Positions 5,464 to 45,689 of a stretch of 45,689 bases of DNA are shown in pieces. The stretch comes from Pseudomonadales bacterium (GTDB lineage: Bacteria > Pseudomonadota > Gammaproteobacteria > Pseudomonadales > Pseudohongiellaceae). The first letter of the stretch is position 1. The number at the start of each line of letters is the position of its first letter. A program made the translations under genes and the position numbers. Below the pieces are notes generated by a model. It was not told where the DNA came from, searched no databases, and saw only the letters and a program-made list of their open reading frames with translations. The stretch covers positions 1 to 45,689 of the forward strand of contig JAJDVS010000095.1 in the NCBI GenBank assembly GCA_022825945.1. The letters are read 5' to 3'.

Positions 5464-5757
5464 ATGGCCAAGAAAGAAATTGCCTACGGACAAATACGTA
5501 CAACCGCCGAACTCGGCAGACTGGTGCGCGCCTACCGCAAGAACAAGGGACTGACTTTGGAGGCCGTATCCGGGCTCGGAAACCTGAGTACAAGATTCCT
5601 GTCCGAATTCGAACGCGGCAAGGAAACCGCCGAAATCGGCAAAATCCTGAAAACGCTGAAAACCCTGGGTCTGGAAATTTCCCTGCAGCCAAGGGGACCT
5701 CAAGCGCCGTCCTTGCGTAGCCCCCTCGCAACGAATACCGGGACGGAAAAATCATGA
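5464..5757 (+). CDS. hipB: HipB-like antitoxin, HTH_XRE repressor
   Basis: This 97-aa DNA-binding antitoxin of a HipBA-type module has a helix-turn-helix over residues 15-65 (LGRLVRAYRKNKGLTLEAVS, RFLSEFERGKETAEIGKIL). A TLGLEISLQPRG tail is typical of HipB. ATG 5464 (MAKKEIAYG) is chosen; ATG 5455 in the same frame is the alternative. The palindrome at 5431-5450 lies just upstream, and the stop overlaps the hipA start by ATGA, so the pair is coupled. Confidence 0.85.
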   Translation: MAKKEIAYGQIRTTAELGRLVRAYRKNKGLTLEAVSGLGNLSTRFLSEFERGKETAEIGKILKTLKTLGLEISLQPRGPQAPSLRSPLATNTGTEKS

Positions 5758-11477: not shown

Positions 11478-11500
11478 CTAGTAAAGATTTGGAGATAGTC

Positions 11501-12463
11501 ATGTCACAGAAAGCACCCGGTAAATCCCGTCGTCAAGGGCTGTCGTTTCTCAAGGCCGCCGACATGTTCGCCACCGAGGAAAAGGCTCAGGCGTGGGTCG
11601 AATCGGAGCGTTGGCCGAACGGCGCCTACTGCCCGCGTTGCGGCAGCTTCGATGTTGTGCGAGTCTCGCATCCGAGTCAATCGCATCGTTGCAAGGACTG
11701 CCGCAAGGCGGGCGAGAAGAAAACGCAATTCAGCGTCCGCACCGGGACAGTCATGGAGCGAACCAAGCTGAAATACCGCACATGGGCAATCGGAATTTAT
11801 CTGTACGCCACCAACATCAAGGGCGTCAGTTCCATGCGCCTGCATCGGGAACTCGGCATTACGCAGAAGTCCGCGTGGTTCATGTTGCACCGACTGCGCA
11901 AGGCCGCCGAATCCGGCAACGTGGTGTTCAATGGTCCCGTCGAAGTCGATGAGACCTACGTTGGCGGAGTGCGCAAGAACATGAGCAACAGCCGTCGCCG
12001 GGAACTGAAAGACACCGGACGCGGAGCGGTAGGCAAAACCGCCGTAGTGGGTATCAAGGACCGCGAGACCAATCAAGTACGAGCGGCGGCGGTCGAAAAC
12101 ACAGACAAGGCCACCTTGCAGGGTTTCGTGGTGCGACACGTTACAGGCATGGCGACTGTCTACACCGACGAGGCCACGGCCTATTCGGGACTTCCCTTCT
12201 ACCAGCACGAGGCCGTCAAGCATGGCGTTTCCGAATTCGTTCGCGGCATCGTTCACACCAACGGCATCGAGTCCTTCTGGTCGATGTTCAAGCGCGGCTA
12301 CAAGGGCATCTACCACAAGATGTCGCCAAAGCATCTTGACCGCTACGTGAAGGAATTCCAGCATCGCCACAACATGCGCGAAATGGACACCATCAAGCAG
12401 ATGGGCCATATCGTTACGTCGATGCAGGGGAAGCGGCTCAAGTATCGGGAGTTGGTAGCGTGA
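11501..12463 (+). CDS. IS1595-family DDE transposase
   Basis: This 320-aa transposase starts at ATG 11501 after GGAGAT. It has an N-terminal zinc ribbon (CPRC ... CKDC, residues 41-64) and a DDE core: VEVDETYVGG, VYTDEATAYSGL and the terminal H-x-N-x-I-E block HTNGIESFWSMFKRGYKGIY. The reading frame is intact, so the element may be mobile. The TGA overlaps the methyltransferase GTG (GTGA at 12460), coupling cargo to transposase translation. Confidence 0.93.
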   Translation: MSQKAPGKSRRQGLSFLKAADMFATEEKAQAWVESERWPNGAYCPRCGSFDVVRVSHPSQSHRCKDCRKAGEKKTQFSVRTGTVMERTKLKYRTWAIGIYLYATNIKGVSSMRLHRELGITQKSAWFMLHRLRKAAESGNVVFNGPVEVDETYVGGVRKNMSNSRRRELKDTGRGAVGKTAVVGIKDRETNQVRAAAVENTDKATLQGFVVRHVTGMATVYTDEATAYSGLPFYQHEAVKHGVSEFVRGIVHTNGIESFWSMFKRGYKGIYHKMSPKHLDRYVKEFQHRHNMREMDTIKQMGHIVTSMQGKRLKYRELVA

Positions 12464-13350
12464 GGGCGGTAGACCTGTTTTGCGGCTGCGGCGGCCTGAG
12501 CGCCGGATTGATTGAATCCGGCATCAACGTGGTGGCGGCCTACGACTATTGGGAGCCCGCGCTGGAAACCTATCGCCGCAACATCGCCGCCCATTCCCAT
12601 CGGCTTGATCTGTCCGATGTCGAACTGACAACCGAGGCGATTCGACGGCACGGGCCGGACATGATTGCCGGTGGCCCGCCCTGTCAGGACTTCTCGACGG
12701 CGGGCAAGAGAGTGGAATCCAGCCGAGCCAATCTGACGCTGGCGTTCAGCGAAATTATCGAAGCTTGCCGCGTCCCGTTTTTCCTGATGGAGAACGTGCC
12801 GCAAGTTCGATTGAGCGAGACATACCGAGCGGCGCGGGAACGGTTGGAATCGGCCGGATACGACATATCGGAAATCGTGCTCGACGCGAGCCGCTGCAAT
12901 GTGCCGCAAGCCCGCAAGCGGTTTTTCGCTTTCGGTGCGCTTGCGGGGCAATCCGGCGCATTTCTTGAATCGGTGGCCGACCGAATCGCCGACGAGCCGC
13001 TTACTGTCAAGGCGTACCTCGGCGACGAAATCGACATCGAGCACTATTACAGGCATCCCCGAAACTACTCGCGCCGCTCGGTGTTTTCGGTGCATGAGCC
13101 GTCCCCCACGGTGCGCGGCGTGAATCGTCCCGTTCCGCCCGGATACAAGGGCAATCATCTGGACAGCGTATCGCCAAGTACGGTTCGCCCGCTCACCACC
13201 AGAGAACGCAGCCGGGTCCAGACGTTCCCCGAGCGATGGGAATGGAACGCCGGCGACCGTAACGCGGATGCGGAGACACAGATTGGCAATGCCGTTCCCG
13301 TCGCGCTGGCGGAGTTCGTCGGACAAGGCATTCTCGATGCTGTCGCCTGA
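12460..13350 (+). CDS. DNA (cytosine-5) methyltransferase
   Basis: This 296-aa m5C methyltransferase shows all main motifs in order: DLFCGCGGLSAG (I), GGPPCQDFSTAGKR with catalytic Cys75 (IV), FLMENVPQ (VI), QARKRFFAFG (VIII), RPLTTRERSRVQTFP (IX) and QIGNAVPVALAE (X). It is short but complete. It begins with GTG overlapping the transposase stop and overlaps the endonuclease start by 14 bases. Its partner is HindVP-like, so the likely target is the GRCGYC type. It protects host DNA and ensures transposon retention. Confidence 0.93.
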   Translation: MRAVDLFCGCGGLSAGLIESGINVVAAYDYWEPALETYRRNIAAHSHRLDLSDVELTTEAIRRHGPDMIAGGPPCQDFSTAGKRVESSRANLTLAFSEIIEACRVPFFLMENVPQVRLSETYRAARERLESAGYDISEIVLDASRCNVPQARKRFFAFGALAGQSGAFLESVADRIADEPLTVKAYLGDEIDIEHYYRHPRNYSRRSVFSVHEPSPTVRGVNRPVPPGYKGNHLDSVSPSTVRPLTTRERSRVQTFPERWEWNAGDRNADAETQIGNAVPVALAEFVGQGILDAVA

Positions 13351-14401
13351 GCCCTCGCTGTACGGCATCTCGCGAGAGAATTCCAGTCGAAGCGGTAAGC
13401 AACTCTGGGGCAAAAACCAGTTCAATTCGACCTTCCCGCTTTCCCTCTGCCTGTACATGAGAGATCAGGGTATCGGCCCGGTGGCCGTTGCCTATGACGA
13501 CGGGAGGGTCTCCGCGCAAGCCGGATTGTGGGAAATGGCCGATGTCGTCGGGGATACGGCAGACGTGCCCTACTACCACTTCGAGGCGAGCTTTGGCCCC
13601 TACGCCGCCTATTCCCGCAACGAGACAGACCATATCGACATCGTGGTCGAAGCGCGGGGGCGGCATTTGCGCCCGCTCGAAGTGAAGCTGACGGTGGTTC
13701 CCGACAAGGGAACCTCGAATCAGCCGGAAGCCGATTGGGCACCGGAAATGGTCATGCGTCCGGTGAGTTCCGCCCATGCCATGATGGGGATAGCAAGGCG
13801 ACTGCTCGAAGAGGCGCACGACGAAACACGGATAGAAGCAATCAGCTTTTTGCGAGCGGCCTACAATCGCGTTTCGTCATGGGACAACACGGCGGAAGTC
13901 TTGCGGCATGGGTCCGCTCTGGCCGATGCACTCGGTGCAGTGCTGGACCTTTCGGCGGAGATTCAATCTCCGTTCCTGGTACAGCCGATTTGGCGGACAC
14001 AGGGGCAATCGCTCAAGCTGAAAACCCAGTGTTTCGATGTCTTTGTCTGGTCCGACCTGGCGGTCATGGCGATACCGCTACAAGAGCATCGGAAGTCCGC
14101 GGACAGCGACGTTACCCGATGGCTGCGGGAAATCGCTCGACACGTTCGAAGCCTGTATGACATCCTGCAAACTGGCGATTATGATTACAGTGGCATCTAC
14201 AAGGGAATGCCGCACGGCGGACAGACCGACAAGTCGTTTGCCCTGCCGGGACGGAAAAGCATGAGCTATCTGCGCCATGAACGGCTATTGCGTCCGATAC
14301 TCGACAAATCGGTGTTGGACGTTCTGGTCGGAGAAGGCGGCGCCGATTCACTGAAACCGGAGCGTAGATTCGACGCGGCGGTAAAAGCCCACATGGTCTA
14401 G
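13337..14401 (+). CDS. HindVP-family type II restriction endonuclease
   Basis: This 354-aa protein resembles the HindVP/HgiDI family. The N-terminus LYGISRENSSRSGKQLWGKN followed by QFNSTFPLSL is the family hallmark. A nuclease-like core is visible as ETDHIDIVVEARGR, then LRPLEVKLTVVPDKGTSNQ with E-x-K. ATG 13337 is inside the methyltransferase end; a longer ATG at 13268 would extend into the methyltransferase and lacks family similarity. Family members cut GRCGYC, which suggests the same specificity here. Confidence 0.85.
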   Translation: MLSPEPSLYGISRENSSRSGKQLWGKNQFNSTFPLSLCLYMRDQGIGPVAVAYDDGRVSAQAGLWEMADVVGDTADVPYYHFEASFGPYAAYSRNETDHIDIVVEARGRHLRPLEVKLTVVPDKGTSNQPEADWAPEMVMRPVSSAHAMMGIARRLLEEAHDETRIEAISFLRAAYNRVSSWDNTAEVLRHGSALADALGAVLDLSAEIQSPFLVQPIWRTQGQSLKLKTQCFDVFVWSDLAVMAIPLQEHRKSADSDVTRWLREIARHVRSLYDILQTGDYDYSGIYKGMPHGGQTDKSFALPGRKSMSYLRHERLLRPILDKSVLDVLVGEGGADSLKPERRFDAAVKAHMV

Positions 14402-14413
14402 AGGAGAAGAGCA

Positions 14414-14593
14414 ATGAACCCCACCAGAAAACGCAAGGCCAAAATTCCGCCCGCCCGTAACATCACGGTCAAACCGCCCGACTATCAGCCGAGCGCGAAG
14501 GAACTCAACGAAGAACACGATATGCCCGGTATGAGCCGAAAGCAGATTCGGGATACGTTTTTCCGCCCCTTCAACGTGACCGAAAAACGATGA
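14414..14593 (+). CDS. Small basic protein in transposon cargo (59 aa)
   Basis: ATG 14414 follows GAGGAGA and lies 12 bases after the endonuclease stop. The product is very basic at its N-terminus (MNPTRKRKAKIPPARN) and ends ...SRKQIRDTFFRPFNVTEKR. No family is recognised. Its stop overlaps the next start (ATGA at 14590), so the two small ORFs are a coupled pair. It might be a controller or accessory of the R-M system or of transposition. Confidence 0.6.
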   Translation: MNPTRKRKAKIPPARNITVKPPDYQPSAKELNEEHDMPGMSRKQIRDTFFRPFNVTEKR

Positions 14594-14721
14594 TGTCCGC
14601 CTACGAATCGCGTCTCCGCACTGCGCCCATCGAGGACGTGGAGGACTACATGCGCGAGAACGGCATCATGGCCGAATTTTACGAGGCGTTCCCGAATTAC
14701 GAGAAGCGGGATGAGACGTGA
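14590..14721 (+). CDS. Small acidic protein in transposon cargo (43 aa)
   Basis: The product (MMSAYESRLRTAPIEDVEDY ... EFYEAFPNYEKRDET) is acidic, opposite in charge to its coupled 59-aa neighbour. The start overlaps the neighbour's stop. The end (GTGA) overlaps a GTG that opens the PIN toxin frame running through the inverted repeat. No homologue is recognised. The strong operon signals argue that it is translated. Confidence 0.55.
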   Translation: MMSAYESRLRTAPIEDVEDYMRENGIMAEFYEAFPNYEKRDET

Positions 14722-15149
14722 ATCCGGTTACTTTGGTATGTAATCCCCTAAGATTGAGCGCAATATTGCTCGACACCCATGCGTGGGTCTGGAGTTTGAT
14801 GGCGCCGCACCGGCTCGGCGGGGCGGCCAAGGCGGCGATCGCGACGGCGGATTCGGTTTTCCTCAGTCCAATCAGCGTCTACGAGGTCACGCGCAAGGCG
14901 GAACTTGGCGGGTGGCCGGAAATCGTTCCGCACCTCGATGAACTGATCGCCGAGACCGAGACGTTGACGGCGCCGTTCAGCCGCGGGATAGCGGCCCGCG
15001 CCGCACTGCTCGATTGGCGGCATCGCGACCCATTCGACCGTTTCATCGCGGCCACCGCGATCGAATTGCGCTACCCGCTTGCGTCGAAGGACGCCGAATT
15101 CGATTCGCTCAAAAGCGGAACCGGTTGGCCGGGGCGCGTGTGGTCGTAG
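14718..15149 (+). CDS. PIN-domain (VapC-type) toxin, 5' end remodelled by the transposon
   Basis: This PIN ribonuclease toxin shows ILLDTHAWVW (first Asp), VYEVTRKAELGG (Glu), DWRHRDPFDRFIAATAIE (third and fourth acids) and YPLASKDAEFD. Without the transposon it would start at TTG 14754, one base after the antitoxin stop (131 aa). As sequenced, the frame is open to GTG 14718 inside the element, adding 12 residues. That GTG overlaps the stop of the transposon's last ORF. The toxin could therefore be translated from transposon mRNA, away from its antitoxin. The true start is uncertain. Confidence 0.82.
   Translation: MNPVTLVCNPLRLSAILLDTHAWVWSLMAPHRLGGAAKAAIATADSVFLSPISVYEVTRKAELGGWPEIVPHLDELIAETETLTAPFSRGIAARAALLDWRHRDPFDRFIAATAIELRYPLASKDAEFDSLKSGTGWPGRVWS
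14725..14748 (-). repeat. Right terminal inverted repeat of the IS1595 transposon
   Basis: This is the exact reverse complement of 11418-11441. The PIN toxin reading frame passes through it without a stop. Confidence 0.95.
14749..14756. repeat. 8-bp target-site duplication, right (TAAGATTG)
   Basis: This is identical to 11410-11417. Its last three bases (TTG) are the native PIN toxin start codon candidate. Confidence 0.95.
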
Positions 15150-15172
15150 TGTCGACTTGGCAGAACTTCCAA

Positions 15173-15895
15173 CTAATCCACCACCGGGTAAAACGGTTGT
15201 CCCCAGTCTTCACAAGGGTTATCCATCATCAGATCGATGAATTGAGGTACTAGGAAGGCAAGAATCGCGGCACCGTCATTCACCTGCTCCCGGTTTACGC
15301 CACTGTTCCACGTCGCGCCACCGTGCAGTATCTGATTGCGAAGTACATAGAGCCGATTGAACACCTCGTTGAGTACACTGATAGTATTCTGACTTTCGAC
15401 TGAAGAAATGAATCTCTTTCTGGAGGCATCAAACCAAGACTTCCAATTCTCGCATCCGGCTATACCGTTGTAGTGTTTCCAGAACGGACTATAGACGTAT
15501 TTGTTCGCCATAAGCAGCCGAATGGGCCCCGAAAAATTCTCCCATATCGCATTATAAATCCGCTTTTCTCGATCCAGCGAAACAACTTTTTGCAAGTAGT
15601 CGGCGAAAATTGACCTCTCACTTCTTTCCTCGTAGCTCCCGATGTTTGAACGCATCAGTTTCTCTTCGTCCGCATAGGCAGCATTGAAAGCTATCCACAG
15701 AAGTATGAACTGCGTATCGGAATCCTCGGCCTGCTCAGCCCGACCAATCCAACTGATCGAACGGTGAATGCGTAAACCCATTGACTCTGGAAATCCTTTC
15801 CTGATTCGTCGTTGTTTTACCTTCAACTCACGGTGTGTCTGAGATGTCAGCATTTCTCGTTCTTCCATTTGATGTACTTTGGTCACTCCACTCAT
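15173..15895 (-). CDS. HEPN-like domain protein (RNQILH motif)
   Basis: This roughly 240-aa protein of mainly helical pattern is convergent with the PIN toxin. FILLWIAFNAAYADEEK (about 63-79) and the C-terminal RLYVLRNQILHGGATW resemble HEPN ribonuclease domains. R186-N-Q-I-L-H191 fits the catalytic R-x4-6-H motif. HEPN proteins are common RNase effectors in defence and TA systems. No nucleotidyltransferase partner is adjacent. Start is uncertain (15895, 15868 or 15853). Base composition is less GC-rich than the flanks, suggesting recent arrival. Confidence 0.6.
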   Translation of the reverse strand: MSGVTKVHQMEEREMLTSQTHRELKVKQRRIRKGFPESMGLRIHRSISWIGRAEQAEDSDTQFILLWIAFNAAYADEEKLMRSNIGSYEERSERSIFADYLQKVVSLDREKRIYNAIWENFSGPIRLLMANKYVYSPFWKHYNGIAGCENWKSWFDASRKRFISSVESQNTISVLNEVFNRLYVLRNQILHGGATWNSGVNREQVNDGAAILAFLVPQFIDLMMDNPCEDWGQPFYPVVD

Positions 15896-34647: not shown

Positions 34648-34860
34648 TCAGCGCGATAGTCGTTCCAAAACCTTTATAACCAAGCTCATAGCCTCTTCAA
34701 CTTGCTCGTCAGTTGTTTGGAAGCCGAGGCTGAATCGTACCGACGCTTCTGCGTCATCAGGCTTTAGACCTATTGCATCCAAGACATGCGAAGGCTCGGG
34801 TATACCCGATGTACATGCGGAACTCGTAGATGCCGCGAGACGCGGCTGAAGTGCTCCTAG
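34648..34860 (-). pseudogene. C-terminal relic of an IscS/DndA-like cysteine desulfurase
   Basis: About 70 residues remain: GALQPRLAASTSSACTSGIP, EPSHVLDAIGL, EASVRFSLGFQTTDEQVEEA. The catalytic persulfide Cys lies in S-S-A-C-T-S-G. The PLP-binding domain is missing. The break is exactly at the CTAG that borders an IS1380 element; the far side of the IS restores only a few plausible codons. DndA-type desulfurases feed sulfur to DNA phosphorothioation, and others to Fe-S clusters; which this was cannot be told. Confidence 0.65.
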
Positions 34861-36322
34861 CCCGGATATTGCACGAGTGGATTGATTTGACCCTGAGTCC
34901 ATGGTTTTCGGTTCCTGCCGGGACGTGACGATTCCGTCCTGTTGGAAACGGGACCGTTGTCCGCCTTTTTTGGCCTGGTCATCGAGATGGATTGGCGGAT
35001 TTCCTTCTCCGCGGGAGCATTTCCCGGATTCGGGGCGAACGCGACCCCGGACCGGGTCCGCCCATATGGAACGCGGGTCTGGCGTTGCGCCTATCCGGGC
35101 CGAAGTTTGGCCGCGGCGGTGTGGAACAATATCTGGTGGGGGCGGGAACCGGACAGCAACAGGCGCACGCGTCGGGTATTGCGCAACACGACGGCGCCGA
35201 ACTTCAGCAACTTGAGCCGGATCGTGCCGACGTGGGCGTTGGCGAGTTCGCCGCCGTCGAGGGCGACGCGGCGGATGGCTTCGAGCAGCACATAAGCCAG
35301 GGTGGAGAGCGGCAGCCGGTACTGGTTCGGCCACCAGGCGTGGCAACTGGTGCGGTCGGCGAACAGGTCGAGCTGCTGTTCCTTGATCCGGTTCTCCATG
35401 TCGCCTCGGGCGCAATAGACCCGGTCGTACAGCCATTGCGGGGCGCCTTTCAGGCTGGTGACGACGTAGCGCGGGTTGGCGCCCCGCGACGTATGCTTGG
35501 CCTTGACGATCACCCGCCGGGACCGTCGGCGCCAGGACCTGGCGGCATAGGGGAACTCGTCGAACACGCGCGCCTTCCCGCCGCTGGCTTCGTGCCCCAT
35601 GGCCGCCAGTTCCATGATGGAATCCGCCGTCGCCGCGGAAGACGATCTTCACCTCCGGCCAGGTCTGGCGCAGACGCCGGGTCAGCAAGGCCAGAATCGC
35701 CCAGGCGTGCCGGGCGCCGTCGCTGTTGCCCGGGCGCAGCCAGGCCGCCAGCGGCCGGTCGCCACAGAACACGTACAGGGGCGGAAAGCAGTGGCGGTTG
35801 TAGTATCCGTGGAAGAAACGACCTTCCCGCATGCCATGCACCGGATCGTCGGTGGCGTCGAAGTCCAGCACCAGACGGCGGGGCGGGCGCGCGAAGGATG
35901 CGATGAACCGCTCCACCAGCGGCCCGTCGGCGTCCACCGCCGTTTGCAGCGCCGGGTCCGACCGCAACTCGTCATGGTCGTCCGGGTCTTCGTATCCCAG
36001 CGCCAGCGCGTACACCCGCTGCCGGACCATCGTCGGAAGCGAATGCCGGCAACTGGCCTGGCGGCGCGTATCGGTCAACGCCTTCGCGGCCCGGTCGGTC
36101 AATCCCAGCATCCGGTCGGCCTGCCGCAACAGCACCGCGCCACCGTCGGAAGTGATCGCGCCCCCGGAAAAAGAGGCCTCCACGAGGCGGCTCTTGCAGT
36201 GTGGAAAAGCGATGGAATGCGGATTACAATCTGTCATGGGCGCAGTCCTTCAATATCAGCCTAAGTAACTGAATTACATCGAAATATGGACATCCCGCCC
36301 ACCTGATCATGCAATATTCGGG
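34861..36322 (-). mobile_element. Degenerate IS1380-family insertion sequence
   Basis: The ends are imperfect inverted repeats (CCCGGATATTGCACGA against CCCGAATATTGCATGA) flanked by CTAG on both sides (34857-34860 and 36323-36326), a 4-bp duplication. The element is about 1.46 kb, shorter than typical members because of an internal deletion in the transposase. It is inserted in the cysteine desulfurase gene. Probably not autonomous. Confidence 0.8.
35091..36237 (-). pseudogene. IS1380-family transposase, internally deleted and frameshifted
   Basis: The first frame (from ATG 36237) gives FSGGAITSDGGAVLLRQADR, LVLDFDATDDPVHGMREGRF and VKIVFRGDGGF, which carries two catalytic Asp regions. At about 35615-35630 the frame breaks and roughly 35-40 residues are missing. 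The second frame continues MGHEASGGKARVFDEFPYAA, CARGDMENRIKEQQLDLFAD (E-N-R-I-K-E-Q) and LLKFGAVVLRNTRRVRLLLS to 35091. Catalytic parts are present but split, so the enzyme is inactive. Confidence 0.85.
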
Positions 36323-36457: not shown

Positions 36458-39400
36458 TTAGAATGGCCTTCTCAGCACCTCGAAGAGAGACTTGAATCGC
36501 ACTTGGTTTCCAGCGGCTACTGCCTGTGCATGGGCGGCTGCCAATTGCGGCCCAAATCCGTTCGAATCAGTGTTCCAAAGCGGATGGGTAATGATCTCCG
36601 CAACGCTTCCACGAATTCCTGCCTGAAGACCGGCGAACGTCGTTTGTTGCCATCCAGGCATGGCTGCGAAATATGGGCCAGCAACTGCCGCATCAAGCCC
36701 CTGCCAATATGACTCGGTGAAATCGATTGGTGCGTTTGGGTCCAAGGCAAGTCTTGCAACATCTAGACCCAGGCGCCAGTCGAGGATCGGATGATAGGGA
36801 AGGTTGCTGAAGTCACGCAGGCAATCTGGGCATGAGGTTCTGCAGGCGTTGGTTCCTAGTCCAGCGTGTCGTGGCCCAACCAGGAAGTCGTAGAACGTGG
36901 GTGCTTGTGGAGGCCGGCCCAATATGTAATTCAGCAAATGTTCGGCTTCTTGTGCCTGTCCCAACAATGATGCGTATCCGGCACCGTTCTCGAGGCTATC
37001 GGAGAGGAATACCTGCCCGATGACCTCGCCGGTAGCATCACGAAGAACGCGAACGCCTACGTTGATCTCCCGTTCGTGAATATCCAGGTAGTCTGCTGCT
37101 GCACGCCGCAGGAGGAAACCAAAAGAGAACAGCGCGGCGCGAACTTCCAGAGCTCCGGGTCCAGCGGGCGATTTCCGTACGCCCTTTGGCCAGTTGGCGA
37201 TCCCCAGAACCATGACGTCGGTAACCTTGACTGATGCCAAAGCTCTTTCAAGGCTGCCGGCGCCTGCGTCCATCGAAGGGTTGTTGACTCCCGTAGCGGC
37301 AAGCGCATCCCGCGTCGCCCAAGTCTCCCCCTGTACTAGCCTCTCGAAGGTGAACAAACGACTATCGTTGTCATTGACGACGTATACAGTCTCTTGGTCC
37401 GCCCAAACCTCGAAGTTCGCCTGTCGTTTGACGGGGAGCGGTTTAACTCCCAACTTTGGCCGAGATGCGCGAGGCGTCCACTCGAAAGCACCATCGAAGT
37501 CACGACTGCGACCAAACCATGACCGGAAACCAACGGGTTGAGAAAGGTCAATAACGCGATACCCTGGATCTTGGGTCGATGTCGCTCCACAAACTGCGCA
37601 GGAGGCGGGAGGTGGCTGAGATTCGTCTATAGCCTGACAGTTCCCACATAGGCCAACTGATATGGTCGGTCCTAGCGGCCCAGGCTCCTCGCTGATGTTG
37701 TTGCCCTGAGGCCGGTAGTCTACGACTCCGATGGCGGTGTGAATGAGTCCATCCTTGACAGTTTCCGCCCCGGGCGCGAACTGGCTGATTGCGATGTCAA
37801 GCTCTCGATCAATTACACCTTCGGGTGGCCATGGAAAGGCACGGCGGGGCCGATCATGGTAGAGAAACCGGATTCGCGTGGGGAACCCGAACATCGGCAA
37901 CACACCGGCATTCGCGAGTTTCTCGCTCAGCGCAGTCTGTGCATAAAGCGGATTGATCGAAACGGCAGTAACTTCGGGAACGAGGTCACGCATCATGTAT
38001 TCGATTAAGGCTTGCCGCTGTGCCTGAAGAGTGGCATCGGCGTAGACCAGCAGAACATCGGTGACGTGGGCGACTTCTGCCTCATTTTGCTTGATCCATT
38101 CGCCAACTAGCTGGGCAGTAGTCGCTCCTTTAGGTGCTCCGGCGGGTAAGTGAACGGGGGGAAGATTCCAGTTTGCGGCAGTCCCGAATTCGCCGTGCAC
38201 GCTATCCCCAGAGCCTACAAAAAAATTCAATGAATCAAACGCCCGCCGTAGAACCTCCTTTGCTAAAACTCGTTTGACGATGATCTCCCGTCGCACATCC
38301 ACGTAGGGTTGGGGAGGCGGGTCCGACGTGATCCGTTGGGGACGCTGAAAGTAATAGTCGTCGTGGCTTCGTCCTCGACATAGCGTGAGCGCCACAGACA
38401 TTCCGGATCCCCGGCGACCGGCGCGACCAATCCGCTGCTGATAGTTAAATCGCATTGGCGGCATGTTCGCCATCATGACAGCGAGTAGGGACCCGATGTC
38501 AACGCCAGCTTCCATCGTGGTCGTCACGCTTAGCAGATCAACCGGATCAGCAAGTGGATTCTCTTGGGGTGCAGGCAGACAGACATTTTGAAAGAGGCGC
38601 TGTCTTCTTCTCGCGTCTTCCTTATTTGTCTGACCGGTGAGTTCTTCGCAGTTCAGACGGAATACTTGGCCTGCCTGCCTTGCCAAGTAGCTGTAGTAGT
38701 CGGCAGACACTTGCCCGGCGGCGATCAGTTGTGGCGGTCGAAGTGACGAACAGCAATCGGCACATACACCGCCAGACGGGTGAAGGTGAATTCGCCGACA
38801 CTGCTCGCATTCATGGAAGTTGGTTCCCGCCGATTGGAGGCAGAGGGACGTAACCTCGAGGTAGTAGTGCGCTTTGTTTAGGCATCCCGAATCTGAAAGG
38901 TGGTCTATTACGTCGTCTATATAGCTGTCGGGTGTCAGGCCATTTTGAGTCGCAACCTTCGTCAAGTATCTGACCATGTAGCCAGGAATGGAGTTCTGCG
39001 AAGACACTTGATGTGTTGAAAGTCGCTTGCGGGACCCGAGCAGGCGAATGGAGCCATCGGCACCCTCTTGGATGAGATTGGAGGCTGCTGGGGTAGTAAT
39101 TCGATCCGTGGTCGGAAGAGCGAGAAGCAGAGACTCGATGCTCCGGCGCCCCGAAGCGAAGAGAAGGTCCATCAACTCGACGACCGAACGATCTTGAATT
39201 CTGTTCAGATGGTCGCGTTGTGGCTGCGAAAGGTGAGCCCGCGGCTTCGCCACTGGCTGTCCAACCGGTGGCCAGTCGTATAGGTCGCACCAGCTACCAC
39301 GGTGATCCTGCGAATCAGTCCACAAAACCTCCTGCCCGTAACCAGCGGGATTCATCCCTTCCGCGAGCAGGCGTACCGAGATATCGGCGGCTATTTGGGT

Positions 39401-42019
39401 TATGCGGAACGGGCCGCTAGCAGCACGTTGGAGAATTCTTTGGGCAGCCTGTTGATTGGTCAGTGCCGGATCGCCAACTGACGGAAACGCTTCGGTGTCT
39501 GGATTGTTGGCCATCAAAATAGTCGACGCGTCCTGTGGATGTTCGGACAGAAAAGTTGCCGCGGCCTGTTGGTGATCCGGTGACTGTGCCTTCCCCAGGC
39601 ACCGGTCTGCAAACGCTTGGGGACCAACCGACTGCTGCTCAAGCGCTGCCGTGAGCGCTTGGCGTAAAGCATCCCGGTAGTGGGAGAAGCGCATCCCTGC
39701 GGAGAGTTTTGCGGCATCCTGGCGGCTGTCGGAAAACACGACCAGCTTACGTTCAGTGGAAAGCGGTGGTTCGGCGAGATCACGCAGTAGCCCATCGGAA
39801 AGAACCTGAGCGATCTTTTGGAAGCCTGTGCGCTGCGCTCGAATCGGCGACCGGACTACCGTTCGCCTCGCCCAGTCCGCATCGCACCGAGGGCAACGGG
39901 CCGGATAGGCTTCGCGGCCAACGTCGGCGGGTGGTGGATTTTGACCGTGAATCGAAGGTACGTAGTAAAGGTATCCGGAGCGCGCACTCGGAGGCGCTCC
40001 ACCAAGTCCAACGCGACCGTCAACAGGATCAAAATATGCTTGCCGCCAAGCTCGCCGGACACTGTCCTGTGTCCACTGATCAGACTCCGGCACCACATCG
40101 CCCGACACAGGCCAGAAAACCGCGTAACGCTCGTAATCCCGATCAAAAGAAGCAAGGTCTGGAGCAGCTTCCAAGTTGGGATGATCTGGACTCAGATACC
40201 ATTCGTTCGGGTTGCCTGCAGCGCGTCGGTATCCACCGAAAAGTACCTCGCCGCATGCCTCGCAGTACAGCAATTCCAGTACACGAGCGCCACACTGGCA
40301 TGTCAGGGCGGGCACATAGTGAAGGACGCCGGTGGGACATGGAGCGGATCGCTGTGGGGCCTGCTCGCATCCAGGGTCGGTACAGACCCACAATCCCTGC
40401 AGATTGCGGAACATTAGGTGGGCGCGCACCGAAATCGGGGCGAGACCCGTACCGCTCCGAGCATGACAGAGTGCGGTCAGCAGCCCATCGGTAGCAAGTT
40501 CGGCGTCGGGCATGGCCGGAAAGAGTGCGGGTGCAAGCTCGTGGGGAGTCTGAGGAACAGTCTGATTGTTCGTTGTGCAGGCTAGGCGCAAGGCGTCCGG
40601 AGCTACTACATGTTGGAGCGCCGCACTCAGAGTCTCCTCCGTGGGTGTGTCGTCAGACAAGGTTGGCGCCCCAACTGCGACATGAAGATTGGCTGTCGCT
40701 TGCGGAAGGGCAGCAGCGCCCTTGCCGACATCGTGAGCGAACTGAGCAAACGCTCCAGCGTGACTGGAAAGTGCTGCTGTAGCCCCGGGGGTCGGTGGGA
40801 CTACATAAGTTGGTCCCCCAATCACCCGAAACCGGCTCCGATCCCTGCCGAAGAACTGTTCCAAGTATTGCAACCCTTCCGTCCCGCTATCGAGAGAGGC
40901 GCTGGATGCAACGATCCGAAGCTGATTGGAATCCGGAGTTAGGCCAAGACGATCAAGTAAAGCTCGAAGAAGGTAGGCGACTTCTGTGCCAGGGGTACCC
41001 CGGTAAGTGTGCAGCTCATCAACAACCAGATGAAAGATGTGCTCCGATGACTGCTCCAACCACTGGCGTGTTTGATCAAAAAGGGGAGTTTCGATCGCAC
41101 GCATCAACATGATATTAAGCATTGAGTAGTTCGTGATGAGAATATCCGGAGGGGAGTCCTGCATGTCCCAACGGGACCACATCTCCGATCCATCTACATT
41201 CTGAAAGAAGCGTTCAGCCGAGGTCCCCGCAACAGCTTGCGCGTCCCGATGAATGCTCGTTAGCTCTTGTCGAAGTCGCGTCGTGTTTGAGGAGTTTGTA
41301 TTCCCCGAGATCGGGGTTCTTCCCGTGTACCGACCGAAGTAAAGGAGATTCCCTTGGCGATTCGCCTGAAGCCATGATCTTGCCCCAGGGCTATCCAGTG
41401 CCTCGCGAAGGCGCATGAGTTGATCCTCTACGAGAGCGTTTAGCGGATATAGGAGCAGAGCCCGAACAGCTGCAGGTCGTGTCTCGTGCGCCCGCTGGCC
41501 GACCCGTTGGGCCCAGCGACGACTCGTTCCCTGCATCGTGAAATGGTTCCACCAGTCCCACTGGGCGGGTCGTTGTCCCGGTGCGCTCCATACTGCGGAT
41601 TCGCGCACAATTGATGCGCCCACGGGGAGCAGGAAGCACTCTGTTTTGCCAGAACCTGTTCCGGTGGTGACGATGACGTCCCGCCCGTTGATTACGGTCT
41701 CCTCGAAGACATCCCGCTGGTGTTGATGAAGCGTCAGTGAAGAAGGAAACAGACCTTGGTCTATGAAAGCGGATGCGTCGGACACCTCGCCGGCCTGCCA
41801 GATGCTCCCAAGAAGGGATTTTGCAGCCTGGCTGAACGACTCACCCGAGGATCGGTAAGCAGGAACTGGCTCTATCAGTGGCTGGCGATAAATTCGGCCG
41901 TCTTGATCAAGCAGGCTTCTGCGCTCCGCAGTCAGATTTTCGTACCTGAGATCGAATGGGCTATCGAGATACCTTAGGTACATGTCGCGGAGGTTCTCGA
42001 AGAGCCGAAGGGGGTTCAT
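36458..42019 (-). CDS. Giant DEAD/DEAH-box helicase with DUF1998/MZB C-terminus (DruE/DrmA-like)
   Basis: This 1853-aa superfamily 2 helicase shows Walker A VTTGTGSGKTECFLLP (about 117-132), Ia ALLLYPLNALVEDQLMR, the DEAH-type box VVDELHTYRG, III ASSASLDSG, V TTTMEAGVDIGSL and VI QQRIGRAGRRGSG. Between motifs III and V lies a large insert with zinc clusters (CQCGARVLELLYCEACGE, CPRCDADW, CEQCRRIHLHPSGGVCADCC). The C-terminus has the DUF1998-type CRTSCPDCLRDFSNLPYH. Such helicases are core parts of Druantia (DruE), DISARM and Dpd defence systems; length fits DruE best. ATG 42019 overlaps the preceding stop (ATGA). It is the last gene of a four-gene operon. Confidence 0.85.
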   Translation of the reverse strand: MNPLRLFENLRDMYLRYLDSPFDLRYENLTAERRSLLDQDGRIYRQPLIEPVPAYRSSGESFSQAAKSLLGSIWQAGEVSDASAFIDQGLFPSSLTLHQHQRDVFEETVINGRDVIVTTGTGSGKTECFLLPVGASIVRESAVWSAPGQRPAQWDWWNHFTMQGTSRRWAQRVGQRAHETRPAAVRALLLYPLNALVEDQLMRLREALDSPGARSWLQANRQGNLLYFGRYTGRTPISGNTNSSNTTRLRQELTSIHRDAQAVAGTSAERFFQNVDGSEMWSRWDMQDSPPDILITNYSMLNIMLMRAIETPLFDQTRQWLEQSSEHIFHLVVDELHTYRGTPGTEVAYLLRALLDRLGLTPDSNQLRIVASSASLDSGTEGLQYLEQFFGRDRSRFRVIGGPTYVVPPTPGATAALSSHAGAFAQFAHDVGKGAAALPQATANLHVAVGAPTLSDDTPTEETLSAALQHVVAPDALRLACTTNNQTVPQTPHELAPALFPAMPDAELATDGLLTALCHARSGTGLAPISVRAHLMFRNLQGLWVCTDPGCEQAPQRSAPCPTGVLHYVPALTCQCGARVLELLYCEACGEVLFGGYRRAAGNPNEWYLSPDHPNLEAAPDLASFDRDYERYAVFWPVSGDVVPESDQWTQDSVRRAWRQAYFDPVDGRVGLGGAPPSARSGYLYYVPSIHGQNPPPADVGREAYPARCPRCDADWARRTVVRSPIRAQRTGFQKIAQVLSDGLLRDLAEPPLSTERKLVVFSDSRQDAAKLSAGMRFSHYRDALRQALTAALEQQSVGPQAFADRCLGKAQSPDHQQAAATFLSEHPQDASTILMANNPDTEAFPSVGDPALTNQQAAQRILQRAASGPFRITQIAADISVRLLAEGMNPAGYGQEVLWTDSQDHRGSWCDLYDWPPVGQPVAKPRAHLSQPQRDHLNRIQDRSVVELMDLLFASGRRSIESLLLALPTTDRITTPAASNLIQEGADGSIRLLGSRKRLSTHQVSSQNSIPGYMVRYLTKVATQNGLTPDSYIDDVIDHLSDSGCLNKAHYYLEVTSLCLQSAGTNFHECEQCRRIHLHPSGGVCADCCSSLRPPQLIAAGQVSADYYSYLARQAGQVFRLNCEELTGQTNKEDARRRQRLFQNVCLPAPQENPLADPVDLLSVTTTMEAGVDIGSLLAVMMANMPPMRFNYQQRIGRAGRRGSGMSVALTLCRGRSHDDYYFQRPQRITSDPPPQPYVDVRREIIVKRVLAKEVLRRAFDSLNFFVGSGDSVHGEFGTAANWNLPPVHLPAGAPKGATTAQLVGEWIKQNEAEVAHVTDVLLVYADATLQAQRQALIEYMMRDLVPEVTAVSINPLYAQTALSEKLANAGVLPMFGFPTRIRFLYHDRPRRAFPWPPEGVIDRELDIAISQFAPGAETVKDGLIHTAIGVVDYRPQGNNISEEPGPLGPTISVGLCGNCQAIDESQPPPASCAVCGATSTQDPGYRVIDLSQPVGFRSWFGRSRDFDGAFEWTPRASRPKLGVKPLPVKRQANFEVWADQETVYVVNDNDSRLFTFERLVQGETWATRDALAATGVNNPSMDAGAGSLERALASVKVTDVMVLGIANWPKGVRKSPAGPGALEVRAALFSFGFLLRRAAADYLDIHEREINVGVRVLRDATGEVIGQVFLSDSLENGAGYASLLGQAQEAEHLLNYILGRPPQAPTFYDFLVGPRHAGLGTNACRTSCPDCLRDFSNLPYHPILDWRLGLDVARLALDPNAPIDFTESYWQGLDAAVAGPYFAAMPGWQQTTFAGLQAGIRGSVAEIITHPLWNTDSNGFGPQLAAAHAQAVAAGNQVRFKSLFEVLRRPF

Positions 42020-43032
42020 TGAATTTGCACCTCTTGTCTCAGCAGTCTTGCGGCGTGACTCGCCACCTTTTGGGGAACAGCGTACTGTAAACGTCGAGTG
42101 GCCCTGTCGAGGTTCGGGAGTAATCCGGTGTAGAGGATCAACCCTCTTTCGATGAGAAGCGGCGGCCTACAGGTCACCGGAACCGACAGCAGAGACCGGG
42201 AAGGATCGTACTGCATGAAACCATGCACTCGCTGGTGCCGGAGAACAGCGTACTTTCCCACTTGGACGGGAACGTCGTACGTCTGCCCTCGCCAACGCAG
42301 GTAGTGGAAACGCTGGTATTTCATGCGAAACCGAAACAGTCCCGTCTGGCATCCAAGTACATGTTGAAACTCAAGATCTTGCGCGCCAGTGTATTCTCGC
42401 GCCGTCCAGCGCAAAGTGGACGGCGAAAATCTCTCAATCGTCCATCCGGGTGCAGTCGGCGCCTTGGCAGGGACGCGGCTTCGCGGATCATCTACTGGTG
42501 GAATTGCCGCCAACAGAGAGAGAGGAGCGTTCACTTGAATGCGTATGCCTGCCGCCCTGCAAACCGCCTCTAAGTCATTAAATTCGCCACCTGCCACGCG
42601 TATGCAATCGGGCATGCCGGGCGCTGGTTGAGTCTCCCAATCGACGAGGCCTGAATCACTCTGCTCGCGCAATCCCGGAGGGCGCGCCCCACACAGGATT
42701 CCCACCCAACGGTCACCTTCCTGGTGGATAGCAAGCGCCGGAGGGACGACACACCAGTCAGGTCCCGCAGCCTGGGAGCAGAACTCCGCATGCGCCAGTC
42801 GCTGCAATCCAAGGCGCGCTGCCTGATACATGGGAAGCTCGCTTGCGTTCGCGTCATCTGCGTATTCCCCGTCCTTTTCAGTATCACCGGAGTCCACATG
42901 AAGTTCTTCCACCGCCGCACGGAACTGCGACCAAGAACCACTTCCACGGACAGACATCCACGTAAGAAGGTTGTTCAAGCTCACCGGCGCGATCTCCAAA
43001 TGTGTCGTGCCAAGTGCTTGTAAGACTTCCAT
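42016..43032 (-). CDS. Unknown 338-aa protein of the helicase operon
   Basis: No domain is recognised. The sequence alternates helical N-terminal parts (LNNLLTWMSVRGSGSWSQFR, ARLGLQRLAHAEFC) with beta-rich later parts (WCVVPPALAIHQEGDRWVGI, LFRFRMKYQRFHYLRWRGQT, KYAVLRHQRVHGF). No membrane segment or catalytic signature is visible. The start at 43032 overlaps the previous gene by 52 bases; ATG 42957 is an alternative. It is coupled to the helicase by ATGA, so a shared complex is likely. Confidence 0.7.
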   Translation of the reverse strand: MEVLQALGTTHLEIAPVSLNNLLTWMSVRGSGSWSQFRAAVEELHVDSGDTEKDGEYADDANASELPMYQAARLGLQRLAHAEFCSQAAGPDWCVVPPALAIHQEGDRWVGILCGARPPGLREQSDSGLVDWETQPAPGMPDCIRVAGGEFNDLEAVCRAAGIRIQVNAPLSLLAAIPPVDDPRSRVPAKAPTAPGWTIERFSPSTLRWTAREYTGAQDLEFQHVLGCQTGLFRFRMKYQRFHYLRWRGQTYDVPVQVGKYAVLRHQRVHGFMQYDPSRSLLSVPVTCRPPLLIERGLILYTGLLPNLDRATRRLQYAVPQKVASHAARLLRQEVQIQ

Positions 43033-45044
43033 AGAGCATTCACGGGCTCCGTGTCAGGGTTCTTGGTCATCCCCTTTCGGCCTGCGTCCAAGATCAGCCG
43101 AGACCATTGGGCAACTGCAGCATCGGTGCAATTGCTTGATCCGCCGCCATCACACATCTTCGGCTGTTGCAACTCGCACCCGGCGACGCAGAGTATGCGG
43201 GTAGTCTTCTTGTCACAGTGAAGTGGATCCCGCGGCAAAGCCCAGATAGGGCGAAAGCCAGGGGAAGCAATCACTGGTGTTCCACCTAGCGGAGAAGCTT
43301 TTTCGGCCGTCACGATCTGTCCTGGTTTAGGCCCCAGCAGGACAGGATTCGACTCTGGAATAGAGAAAGACTCCGAGCCCCAGGGCTCGGAGGACACGGC
43401 CCGAACATTCGGACCGCAGATAGCAAGCCGTTGGGATTTACCCGCAGCAACGGGAAAGGTGTACGCATCCCACAACTCCCAAGACGCCTCGAAGGGTACG
43501 ATCTGATATGACTTGCTCGATCCAGCACACCAGACGGTGTGCTGCCCAACAGCATCCGATGAGGACGTGCGATAAGCGCCATCCGCGAGACGTTCGGCTA
43601 CTCGACCATCGATACGAACTTCAGAGGCGTGTTCAGGGTCTCCATATACACGAATTGATGGCGGATGCCCTTCGAGCCAATTTGCATGCCTAATCCGAAT
43701 CCCGCGCTCCAGGCTGATCTTGATTCGGGGAAGCGGCCTGAGCGCGTTGAAGATGTCAGCGTCATCTGTTGGTGGAACCGGTGCGCTTGGAACTACATTT
43801 CGAAAGAGAAGCCATCCGGGCGGGATCCCGAACGATTGATCGAGTACAGTCGTAGGCTGGGCTCGTGCATCTCGGATCGCCTCTTCGACGCGGCTTCTGA
43901 GCGTTTCAGTACAAAGGATGACATGATCTCGTCCAAGGTCGAGACGTGGCTGTGAAACATATCCACTGACGTCAGATCGAGCCGCCAGCACGTAAAGTTC
44001 GCGGCCACTTAGAGACCATATACACTGCCCATTCTCGCCTTCCTGCGTCCATACCGTGCCGTTCCGAAGTACGCTTGAAATGTCGTCCGGGACGATATCC
44101 TGGTACCACTCATCCTGCATGGCCCGCAGATACACTTCGCCTTCCGGTGCGGAAACCGTAAACTCTTCCGGCAGGTACGCGGCTCTTCTTGCTAGGAGGG
44201 ATACATTACAAAAACCGCCACGATCGAATCGGAGTCGAATTTGAACGAGCAAGGAACTCTCTTGCGAGACTACTCTCTCTCGCTCAGGGAGTTTCGGGAA
44301 TGATGCTACGTCATTGGTTTGCGGGACGGCGCGTGCAATCCCCTTGTACTTGCGGGGCCTCTTCCTGGCCTGTTTCTTTCGCGAAAGCTGATCGCGTTTC
44401 GCTGGTTCTTCCTTTGTGTCATCACCCCCATCTTGGATTACCGGGCCAGACGGCTGTCCGTTATCTTGAGCAGAAGTGGCGCCGGTCACAGCCATTACAT
44501 TTGTAGCACTCGATGGTTCCTGAGGAGTTGCGACATCTGCATCTACGTCTGCATAGTCCTCCCCTGGACGATCCGTTAAGCCAACAGCGGTGGTGGCCGC
44601 TTCGACCGGCTGGAGCGGGTGTCCGGAATTGGGTTTTTCGCTCGGTTCGCTCTCACCCGGAGTCATCTGCTCGTCTTCGGGAAAGACGGTAAAGTCGGAC
44701 TGCTCAGATGCTTCCTCGGGTCGAACTCCAGACTCTGCCATCATAGAAGGTCCATCGGCAATGAGGGCGGGCGTGCGCTCTTCCATGGCGGCTGTACTCT
44801 GCTCGGCACCGCCGATTGACATGCGAAGATCACGTGTGACTTCCTCTCCCCCACGGGATTCGGGGCACGGGGTTCTTTCCGATGTCGTGTCCGATACCTT
44901 GTCACCGTGCTCACCGGTGGTAGAACGTGGAGACCTCGGAAAAGGCTCCGCTCGCGAGGATTTTCCCCATTTCCGGACGCAATAGATGAGGACACCTGTG
45001 CCTACAACAACGGCCAGGAGAGTAATCAAATGGCCAACACTCAT
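42981..45044 (-). CDS. Membrane-anchored 687-aa protein of the helicase operon
   Basis: A single N-terminal helix (LITLLAVVVGTGVLIYCV) is followed by a long acidic, Ser/Glu/Pro-rich linker (about 30-235) and a basic patch (RDQLSRKKQARKRPRKYKGI). A beta-rich globular half follows (CIWSLSGRELYVLAARSDVS, IRIRHANWLEGHPPSIRVYG), then a Cys-rich segment (ILCVAGCELQQPKMCDGGGS). No known family is recognised. The design suggests a membrane-tethered sensor or platform. The start overlaps the endonuclease III-like stop by ATGA. Confidence 0.72.
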   Translation of the reverse strand: MSVGHLITLLAVVVGTGVLIYCVRKWGKSSRAEPFPRSPRSTTGEHGDKVSDTTSERTPCPESRGGEEVTRDLRMSIGGAEQSTAAMEERTPALIADGPSMMAESGVRPEEASEQSDFTVFPEDEQMTPGESEPSEKPNSGHPLQPVEAATTAVGLTDRPGEDYADVDADVATPQEPSSATNVMAVTGATSAQDNGQPSGPVIQDGGDDTKEEPAKRDQLSRKKQARKRPRKYKGIARAVPQTNDVASFPKLPERERVVSQESSLLVQIRLRFDRGGFCNVSLLARRAAYLPEEFTVSAPEGEVYLRAMQDEWYQDIVPDDISSVLRNGTVWTQEGENGQCIWSLSGRELYVLAARSDVSGYVSQPRLDLGRDHVILCTETLRSRVEEAIRDARAQPTTVLDQSFGIPPGWLLFRNVVPSAPVPPTDDADIFNALRPLPRIKISLERGIRIRHANWLEGHPPSIRVYGDPEHASEVRIDGRVAERLADGAYRTSSSDAVGQHTVWCAGSSKSYQIVPFEASWELWDAYTFPVAAGKSQRLAICGPNVRAVSSEPWGSESFSIPESNPVLLGPKPGQIVTAEKASPLGGTPVIASPGFRPIWALPRDPLHCDKKTTRILCVAGCELQQPKMCDGGGSSNCTDAAVAQWSRLILDAGRKGMTKNPDTEPVNALWKSYKHLARHIWRSRR

Positions 45045-45569
45045 GCGCGAGTCCTCTCCCGCGAGACCTTAACCACACAGGAATCGCTATCCGCAACATC
45101 CCGTGCAGGCGATTTGATGTCAGTGGGTACATCACGCATCCGGCAAATTCTTCGCGCTACGCAATTTGAACACCGGGGCCGTAAAGGCAGGCAGGTTCGC
45201 TGACCATGTACTACGAGATTAATGTGAAATGCCTTTCTTCGTGACCTCTCAACAGCATCCTGCAAGCCGTCGTGAAGGCCTCGTCGCCGGTACACGGACC
45301 TGTCGCCGAGTACCCCTATCCGCTTAAAAATCCTAAATGTGTTGACGTCGACCGGGAACACATCCCTGCCTACGCTGTAAAGCAGCACGCAACGGGCAGC
45401 TTTCCACGACAAACCAGGCAAGCAGGTCAGAAAACGCTCCGCGTCTTCATCGTCCATGTTTCGCAGGAAATCCAGGGAATAAGTCCCCGTTGCGTCCTTT
45501 GTGGCCTTAAGTAGCTTTCTGATTGTCCGTGCCTTTTGCTCTTGGATCCCAGAAGTGGTCGGGCAAATT
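45041..45569 (-). CDS. Endonuclease III-like HhH-GPD glycosylase, 5' end cut by an IS
   Basis: The frame is open from the IS border (about 45569) through SGIQEQKARTIRKLL and TYSLDFLRNM to the stop at 45041. The helix-hairpin-helix LPGLSWKAARCVLLYSVGRD carries the catalytic Lys; FPVDVNTFRIFKRIG carries the catalytic Asp. The iron-sulfur loop CLPLRPRCSNCVARRICRM is a perfect C-x6-C-x2-C-x5-C. The N-terminal third is missing beyond the IS, so activity is doubtful. ATG 45457 lies inside the domain and is not the true start. As first gene of the operon it points to a base-excision or modified-base function for the system. Confidence 0.78.
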
Positions 45570-45689
45570 TGGACAGTCTGTTAAGGTAGTTTTCGCGGAC
45601 TGGGAGGCTGTCTAATGAAGAGGAGAAGATTCAGCGCGGAGTTCAAGCGCAAAGTGGTTTTGGAGGCGATGCGAGGCGACGATGCGGTT
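45570..45689 (+). mobile_element. Start of an IS3-family element (continues outside)
   Basis: The left end is placed at about 45570 (TGGACAGTCTGTTAAGG), where the glycosylase frame ends. An orfA-type transposase begins 45 bases inside. The boundary cannot be confirmed because the right end lies outside. Confidence 0.6.
45615..45689 (+). CDS. IS3-type transposase OrfA, N-terminal 25 codons
   Basis: The product begins MKRRRFSAEFKRKVVLEAMR, the standard start of the IS3-family OrfA helix-turn-helix (K-R-R-x-F-S-x-E-F-K-x-x-V-V-L-E-A). The gene is cut by the window end. Confidence 0.8.
   Translation, partial: MKRRRFSAEFKRKVVLEAMRGDDAV

Follow-up and report, generated by a model that had tools for sequence, protein, structure and literature searches.

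The stretch of DNA analysed here (the window, 45,689 nucleotides) is the whole of contig JAJDVS010000095.1, called C20 below, from the Pseudomonadales bacterium assembly GCA_022825945.1. Its minus strand carries the helicase, DruF and DruL genes of a Druantia antiviral system, and beside them the 3' part of an HhH-GPD DNA glycosylase gene. On its gene content we file the system as Druantia between types II and IV, because a C5-methyltransferase (MTase) gene, recovered on another contig of the same genome, adjoins the DruE/DruF/DruL core. Comparison with an intact relative indicates that the order of the operon was MTase-glycosylase-druF-druL-druE, and that the glycosylase gene is broken here by an insertion sequence (IS). 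In our view the glycosylase is probably the antimutator of the MTase, a role for which Vsr is the alternative in other loci, and not an antiviral effector. The subunit identities, the gene order, the split gene, the glycosylase-or-Vsr pattern and the exchange of the modification cassette described below were all established by sequence comparison.

A preliminary description of this stretch had proposed a four-gene operon of a new or divergent defence system, with a helicase of the DruE, DrmA or DpdJ kind and a gene set that does not match Druantia. The four minus-strand reading frames (ORFs; see the table), the last of them listed at 45041-45457, and the ATGA overlaps at 45041 and 42016 were confirmed in the sequence. 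In a hidden Markov model search against the DruE, DrmA and DpdJ profiles of PADLOC-DB, the helicase of 1853 amino acids (aa) matched DruE4 over residues 2-1852 with 1771.7 bits (E = 0) and the DruE2 models with 1603 and 1557 bits. DpdJ of Dpd and DrmA of DISARM belong to the same helicase superfamily and reached only 52.9 and 34.2 bits; DruE4 outscores both by more than 1700 bits, and membership in either system was rejected. The motifs GTGSGKT, VVDELH and QRIGRAGR are intact, and the protein is 83% identical to DruE of the related locus L016. The 338-aa protein matched DruL4 (70.1 bits; E = 4.7e-20 and 1.2e-15) and also residues 770-1009 of DruF2, and the C-terminal half of the 687-aa protein matched DruF2 (38.6 bits, E = 8.7e-11) and DruF4 (30.6 bits, E = 3e-8). 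Thus the defence-type operon and the DruE kind of helicase stood, and the claim of a new helicase system was dropped, since the helicase and the 338- and 687-aa proteins match named Druantia subunits.

As far as the accessible text of Payne et al. 2021 (PMC8565338) goes, type IV Druantia is defined by DruE, DruF and DruL without DruM. The window resembles type IV in that homologues of these three proteins are encoded co-directionally with overlapping junctions. It differs from it in the adjoining C5-MTase; an MTase is also found in 27 of 39 related loci, mostly together with a glycosylase or Vsr. With type II (DruM-DruF-DruG-DruE) it shares the C5-MTase and the matches to DruE2 and DruF2, whereas the type II DruF models comprise the DruF and DruL parts, which are two genes here. 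Judging by sequence, DruL is the counterpart of the C-terminal region of the type II DruF, because in the loci L062 (5955-8996) and L063 (5904-9011) single proteins of 1013 and 1035 aa contain both parts. This suggests a single system behind types II and IV, in which DruF is either fused or split into two genes. The MTases of relatives match DruM2 models (E = 4e-52 in L003), with higher scores for generic MTase_II models; the MTase of the window's own genome stands outside this comparison. With PADLOC, no DruG match was found among the four window proteins; the neighbours of the MTase on its contig were not scanned, and DruG was not sought elsewhere. The Druantia core is known, and the MTase in the genome of the window and in related loci blurs the line between type IV and type II.

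The glycosylase fragment in the window aligns with residues 89-259 of the intact L016 protein (260 aa) at 74% identity. Residues 1-93 of the L016 protein match contig C2 of the same genome at positions 139-417 with 75% identity, where the glycosylase frame passes into the opposite end of a similar IS. The last 135 bases of C20 have a 100% identical copy at C48:1081-1215, beyond which C20 and C48 differ; this recurring stretch is an IS end with a transposase-like start, presumably of an IS3-like element. By this comparison, the gene is interrupted by the IS, and about the first 90 codons (92 on C2) are separated from the rest. From the matching glycosylase halves we infer that C2 and C20 lie on either side of a single IS copy. 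On C2, a C5-MTase gene (428-1759, 443 aa) ends 10 bases before the glycosylase start; its product is 82% identical to the L016 MTase and has the motifs GPPC, ENV, QARRR and GNSV. The frames of the MTase, druF, druL and druE are intact in the source genome. The four genes described earlier are real, with the C5-MTase as a fifth member. The 138-aa glycosylase frame is not a whole gene. It is the 3' part, cut off by the IS, and its open frame starts inside the IS end; the endonuclease III likeness and the cysteine cluster held, as the fragment retains the catalytic Lys, the Asp and the C-x6-C-x2-C-x5-C cluster. Its best matches in the Protein Data Bank (PDB) are endonuclease III enzymes, which we take to be from Deinococcus, and its intact relatives have the Pfam HhH-GPD domain.

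To place this operon among its relatives, we used 39 DruE loci from 38 genomes, obtained by a pattern-based scan of species genomes (L008 and L025 share one genome, and many loci come from metagenome-assembled genomes). The glycosylase, Vsr, MTase, DruK, DruF and DruL were sought by phmmer and tblastn with a Pfam check on samples. The first three were rechecked with profiles built in this analysis, and a Pfam search for Vsr covered 37 of the 38 genomes, all except that of L032. Partners were detected by similarity to members of the same set, and very divergent ones may be missed. It turned out that the 27 loci with a C5-MTase within the fetched stretch comprise 9 with an HhH-GPD glycosylase (L003, L004, L007, L016, L018, L026, L031, L034, L038), 16 with Vsr (L008, L009, L017, L019, L020, L024, L025, L027, L028, L029, L032, L033, L035, L037, L040, L041), 2 with neither (L015, L030) and none with both. 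A stricter count, restricted to an MTase that is encoded on the druF strand and upstream of it, leaves 17 of the 27: seven with the glycosylase, nine with Vsr, none with both and one with neither (L015, where no druF was found and the position was judged relative to the helicase). Fisher tests of glycosylase/Vsr exclusivity, which ignore relatedness, gave p = 1.2e-5 among the 27 and p = 4e-4 in the strict 17. In eight of the nine glycosylase loci the glycosylase is adjacent to the C5-MTase, L004 being the exception. The two genes are separated by a 10-base gap or overlap by 4 bases in L016, L003, L018 and C2, and in L031 the pair is encoded downstream of the core, on the opposite strand.

Among the 12 loci without an MTase, eight lie on cut contigs (L010, L012, L013, L014, L021, L022, L023, L036); L022 has Vsr and no MTase in the fetched stretch. 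In L005, whose right side is also cut, and L006, where no MTase was detected either, the glycosylase is reduced to fragments (162 and 77 aa) from which the catalytic Asp is lost. Neither an MTase nor a partner was found in the fetched loci L011 and L039. Nine further loci from viral contigs and plasmids (L055-L063) include three with an MTase, one of them with a glycosylase (L062) and two with neither partner (L056, L063); in the other six no MTase or partner was found. In this wider set a partner is present in 26 of the 30 loci with an MTase and in none of the 10 without (Fisher p = 1.2e-6, relatedness again ignored; L059 and L061 were counted as MTase-free on only about 3 kb of left flank).

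On the DruE tree, the locus L018 (Steroidobacteraceae) is sister to L038 (Nitrospira sp. BO4). Identity between them is 96.8% for DruE, 92.3% for DruL and 60% for DruF, and over the aligned parts 31% for the MTase and 30% for the glycosylase. On these identities, the core is kept and the whole modification cassette is exchanged, the new cassette again having a glycosylase. In L038 the MTase and the HhH-GPD glycosylase are fused into one 552-aa protein. Its glycosylase domain is nearest to PDB entry 1kea, Mig.MthI (130.8 bits, E = 5e-37), which is labelled in its record as a "possible G-T mismatches repair enzyme"; MutY chains come next with 122 bits. The alignment places Tyr, Ala and Leu of L038 at Y126, A50 and L187 of Mig.MthI. 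According to the accessible part of PMC2714593, Mig.MthI acts on T/G and U/G and counters the deamination of 5-methylcytosine (5mC), and the A50V/L187Q change is cited there as switching Mig from T/G to A/G. The Mig-like residues of L038 are suggestive, and only suggestive, of a T:G role. The window enzyme shares with Mig.MthI the HhH-GPD fold, the Asp, the four-Cys cluster and, on C2, an adjacent C5-MTase, a partner that Mig itself presumably has too. The Asp is kept in all 19 aligned glycosylase rows (two of which, L007 and L069, are one protein) except the L005 and L006 remnants. The position of the lyase Lys is variable (K, Y, T or N). The window enzyme and most of the Druantia relatives keep Lys there, whereas L038, L062 and L072 have Tyr and L007 has Asn. 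Base excision appears to be conserved and the lyase step not, because the Asp is retained while the Lys position varies.

The pair of MTase and glycosylase also occurs outside Druantia. In the viral-contig loci L053 and L054 a C5-MTase overlaps a glycosylase ORF of the same family; DruF, DruL and DruK were not found there, and DruE was not sought. Both loci (L053 8584-15095, L054 59-7117) share, besides this pair, an SNF2-like helicase ORF (593-596 aa), a 509-529-aa ORF, a small sigma-factor-like ORF and a 154-182-aa ORF, all named by eye. This gene set is perhaps an undescribed modification-linked defence cassette. In L072 (367-2220, minus strand) and L081 (1483-3660, minus strand) glycosylase-MTase and MTase-glycosylase fusions are found, respectively, with the lyase Lys replaced by Tyr or Thr, and in L070 a glycosylase of this family is likewise paired with a C5-MTase. 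L062 has an MTase, an MvaI/BcnI-type endonuclease and a Tyr-type glycosylase together. The source genome of the window also has two Vsr genes, each beside another C5-MTase, on contigs other than C20.

We propose the following explanation. The MTase would put 5mC at a DNA motif in host DNA. Deamination of 5mC to thymine would produce T:G mispairs at the methylated motif, the glycosylase would excise that thymine, and base-excision repair would return C:G. The DruF and DruL proteins and the DruE helicase would attack invading DNA; this step leans on published work on other Druantia types. In the accessible portions of these sources, DruE belongs to the YprA family (Bell et al., PMC12458937), and the type III DruE is presented in a preprint as a helicase-nuclease effector engaging ssDNA-containing intermediates (PMC13192584). 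What we infer is that the glycosylase acts on T:G, that the MTase serves for self-marking and that this copy is antiviral. For the Lys-type enzyme of the window, the antimutator role at T:G would follow from the equivalence of its cassette with those that have Mig-type or Vsr partners. Vsr, a nicking endonuclease, likewise accompanies the C5-MTase, in 16 of the 27 MTase-bearing Druantia loci and never with the glycosylase there, although its fold is unrelated and it usually lies downstream of druE and not before druF. Vsr-like domains have been described in helicases and in CoCoNuT effectors, and the type I and II DruE are stated, in the accessible text, to have an inactivated Vsr domain. A literature search, mostly without subscription papers, found no link of Druantia to a mismatch glycosylase or to a separate Vsr as an operon partner.

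A number of observations weigh against this explanation. The remaining 10 of the 27 MTases stand elsewhere than in the operon slot and may be parts of separate restriction systems; in L008, for example, a NotI-like endonuclease comes after the MTase, and Vsr after that. In the wider set 4 of 30 MTase loci (L015, L030, L056, L063) have no partner. Independent glycosylase/Vsr switches on the DruE tree are few, because the label needs three changes, or two without the distant L062 (quick method, tree without L021 and L023). Vsr is mostly downstream of druE and not in the slot of the glycosylase. The intact glycosylase of L004 has its only detected MTase about 10 kb downstream, with a partial hsdM upstream. 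No MTase was found in the fetched stretch of L011, L039, L055 and L057-L061, so the MTase seems not to be essential to the core. The accessible part of PMC2714593 states that Ala and Leu placed in MutY gave no T:G activity and that BsMutY, a MutY, also has the Tyr. The window glycosylase differs from Mig in having Lys at the place of Tyr126, and the profile of its family is nearer to endonuclease III (130 bits) than to Mig (51 bits). This profile was run on 392 genomes from another phylum, with mostly no more than 6 first-look candidates scored per genome. Of its 30 matches, spread over 29 genomes, only four have an MTase within 1.5 kb: L069, which is the L007 locus, L070, L072 and L081. For the remaining 26 no MTase was found within that distance, and they may be ordinary endonuclease III. 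The decay of the glycosylase in L005 and L006, which have no detected MTase, fits a restriction glycosylase too.

It is possible, though unlikely, that the exchangeable cassette is the self-marking module of Druantia II/IV, that is, a modification-dependent immunity, and that the glycosylase sometimes doubles as a weapon. In phage DNA that is unmodified, or modified differently, it would then create abasic sites, which DruE would convert to lethal breaks. Somewhat less likely still is a role as effector against phages with modified bases, a reworked form of the idea in the preliminary description, in which the glycosylase would excise hypermodified cytosines or thymines and DruE would degrade the abasic DNA. 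One defence glycosylase is known to act on T4 DNA, from which it excises glucosyl-hydroxymethylcytosine (accessible part of PMC13064858), and among the PDB matches of the family profile ROS1 (70 bits) comes directly behind five endonuclease III chains. ROS1 is a 5mC glycosylase; the T4-DNA enzyme is, we assume, the one named Brig1. Against such an effector, in L018 and L038 the glycosylase varies with the MTase while the DruE core stays, the 16 MTase-bearing loci with Vsr have no glycosylase, and a 5mC glycosylase encoded next to an MTase that makes 5mC would attack the host's own DNA. The preliminary description had also imagined a helicase-driven sensor recruiting the glycosylase at the membrane. 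No support for this model was gained: the glycosylase goes with the MTase, also in loci where DruF and DruL are not found, and is missing from other Druantia loci, which have Vsr.

The tight MTase-glycosylase pairs and their natural fusions recall restriction-modification pairs, and restriction glycosylases such as R.PabI are known (accessible part of PMC10273834). The glycosylase might thus restrict by base excision, removing the unmethylated cytosine, or its neighbour, in the MTase motif on incoming DNA, with DruF, DruL and DruE processing the abasic DNA; its survival only as a remnant in the two loci without a detected MTase would agree with this. We consider it very unlikely, as other MTase-bearing Druantia loci have the mismatch-repair nickase Vsr instead, the L038 version has Mig-like residues, and L062 is already supplied with an MvaI/BcnI-type restriction endonuclease beside its MTase and glycosylase. 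The HhH-GPD fold is also unlike the one that we take R.PabI to have. Just as improbable is an ordinary endonuclease III for general repair, drawn into a defence island and unlinked to the MTase. The best PDB matches and the 26 of 30 profile matches in another phylum that have no MTase nearby would suit such an enzyme, but not the close spacing of the MTase and glycosylase genes (a 10-base gap or a 4-base overlap in L016, L003, L018 and C2), the pairing with an MTase in unrelated contexts with three fusions (L038, L072, L081), or the absence of the glycosylase from every surveyed locus with Vsr. Replacement of the DruK nuclease by the glycosylase was rejected, since the two co-occur in L007, L018, L026, L031, L034 and L038.

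The remaining features of the operon concern DruF, DruL and DruK. The 687-aa DruF had been described as a membrane protein with a long acidic linker. The predicted N-terminal helix and the long linker were found, and the linker is only mildly acidic (42 D/E versus 28 K/R in 229 residues); it is probably disordered in the AlphaFold2 (AF2) model. This model has a mean predicted local distance difference test (pLDDT) score of 70.2 overall, with a largely confident C-terminal part. A strong N-terminal hydrophobic segment (19-residue mean hydropathy of at least 1.7 within the first 160 residues) is present in 22 of 31 DruF proteins, that of the window among them. It is not seen in L006, L013, L030, L037, L039, L040 and L041, and in L010 and L012 the protein is cut. 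The 52-base overlap of druF and druL at 42981-43032 is probably a start-codon artefact, because a GTG at 42984 would give a 322-aa DruL overlapping the druF TGA as GTGA, relatives such as L004, L025, L030 and L034 start druL at this position, and in the model of the 338-aa form, which averages 87.7, the pLDDT of residues 1-16 is below 50. The DruL fold is confident, and structure comparison gave no clear match. No significant trace of DruK was found behind druE in the window. In L010, L012, L015, L018, L020, L026 and L034 a DruK-like gene of 270-520 aa lies 3' of DruE; the L020 copy is PD-(D/E)xK by PADLOC, and in L004 and L005 DruK is in pieces.

Table. Features of the operon and its flanks in the window (positions in nucleotides).
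Feature	Position	Strand	Description
druE	36458..42019	-	1853-aa YprA-family SF2 helicase with CxxC (zinc-type) motifs; PADLOC DruE4
druE Walker A	41642-41662		
druE DELH box	41009-41026		
druE motif VI	38414-38437		
druL	42016..43032	-	338-aa ORF as listed; PADLOC DruL4
druF	42981..45044	-	687 aa; predicted N-terminal membrane helix, linker, beta-rich C-terminal part
druF predicted helix	44958-45035		residues 4-29 (hydropathy, AF2 model)
druF low-confidence linker	about 44268-44954		residues about 31-259 (AF2 model)
HhH-GPD glycosylase, 3' part	45041..45554	-	about codons 89-260; endonuclease III-like; relative in L016
glycosylase catalytic Lys codon	45401-45403		
glycosylase Asp codon	45347-45349		
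glycosylase four-Cys cluster	45143-45193		
IS element end	45555..45689	.	inside the glycosylase gene; contig ends within the IS
transposase ORF of another IS	34648..36237	-	Pfam DDE_Tnp_1_4 in two stretches; downstream of druE, outside the system

Elsewhere in the window, a C5-methyltransferase and a HindVP-like restriction endonuclease stand side by side at 12460-14401 (plus strand) as a type II restriction-modification pair, just after an IS1595-type transposase (11489-12463). A HipA-like protein with HipA N- and C-terminal domains, a likely toxin-antitoxin component, is encoded at 5754-7007 (plus strand). Among the surveyed loci, L008 has its row of C5-MTase, NotI-like endonuclease and Vsr at 13155-15831 (plus strand), beside a Druantia core of the type IV kind; this row has the look of a type II restriction system of its own, equipped with its own Vsr.

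These results indicate that an MTase is present in many type IV-like Druantia systems, which makes self/non-self marking a testable part of their mechanism. L018 and L038, with near-identical cores and unrelated cassettes, offer a ready comparison. An antiviral system is also linked here to antimutator genes, as 25 of the 27 MTase loci have a T:G repair candidate, of one or the other of two unrelated folds. If this explanation is true, the mutational cost of 5mC would shape defence operons.

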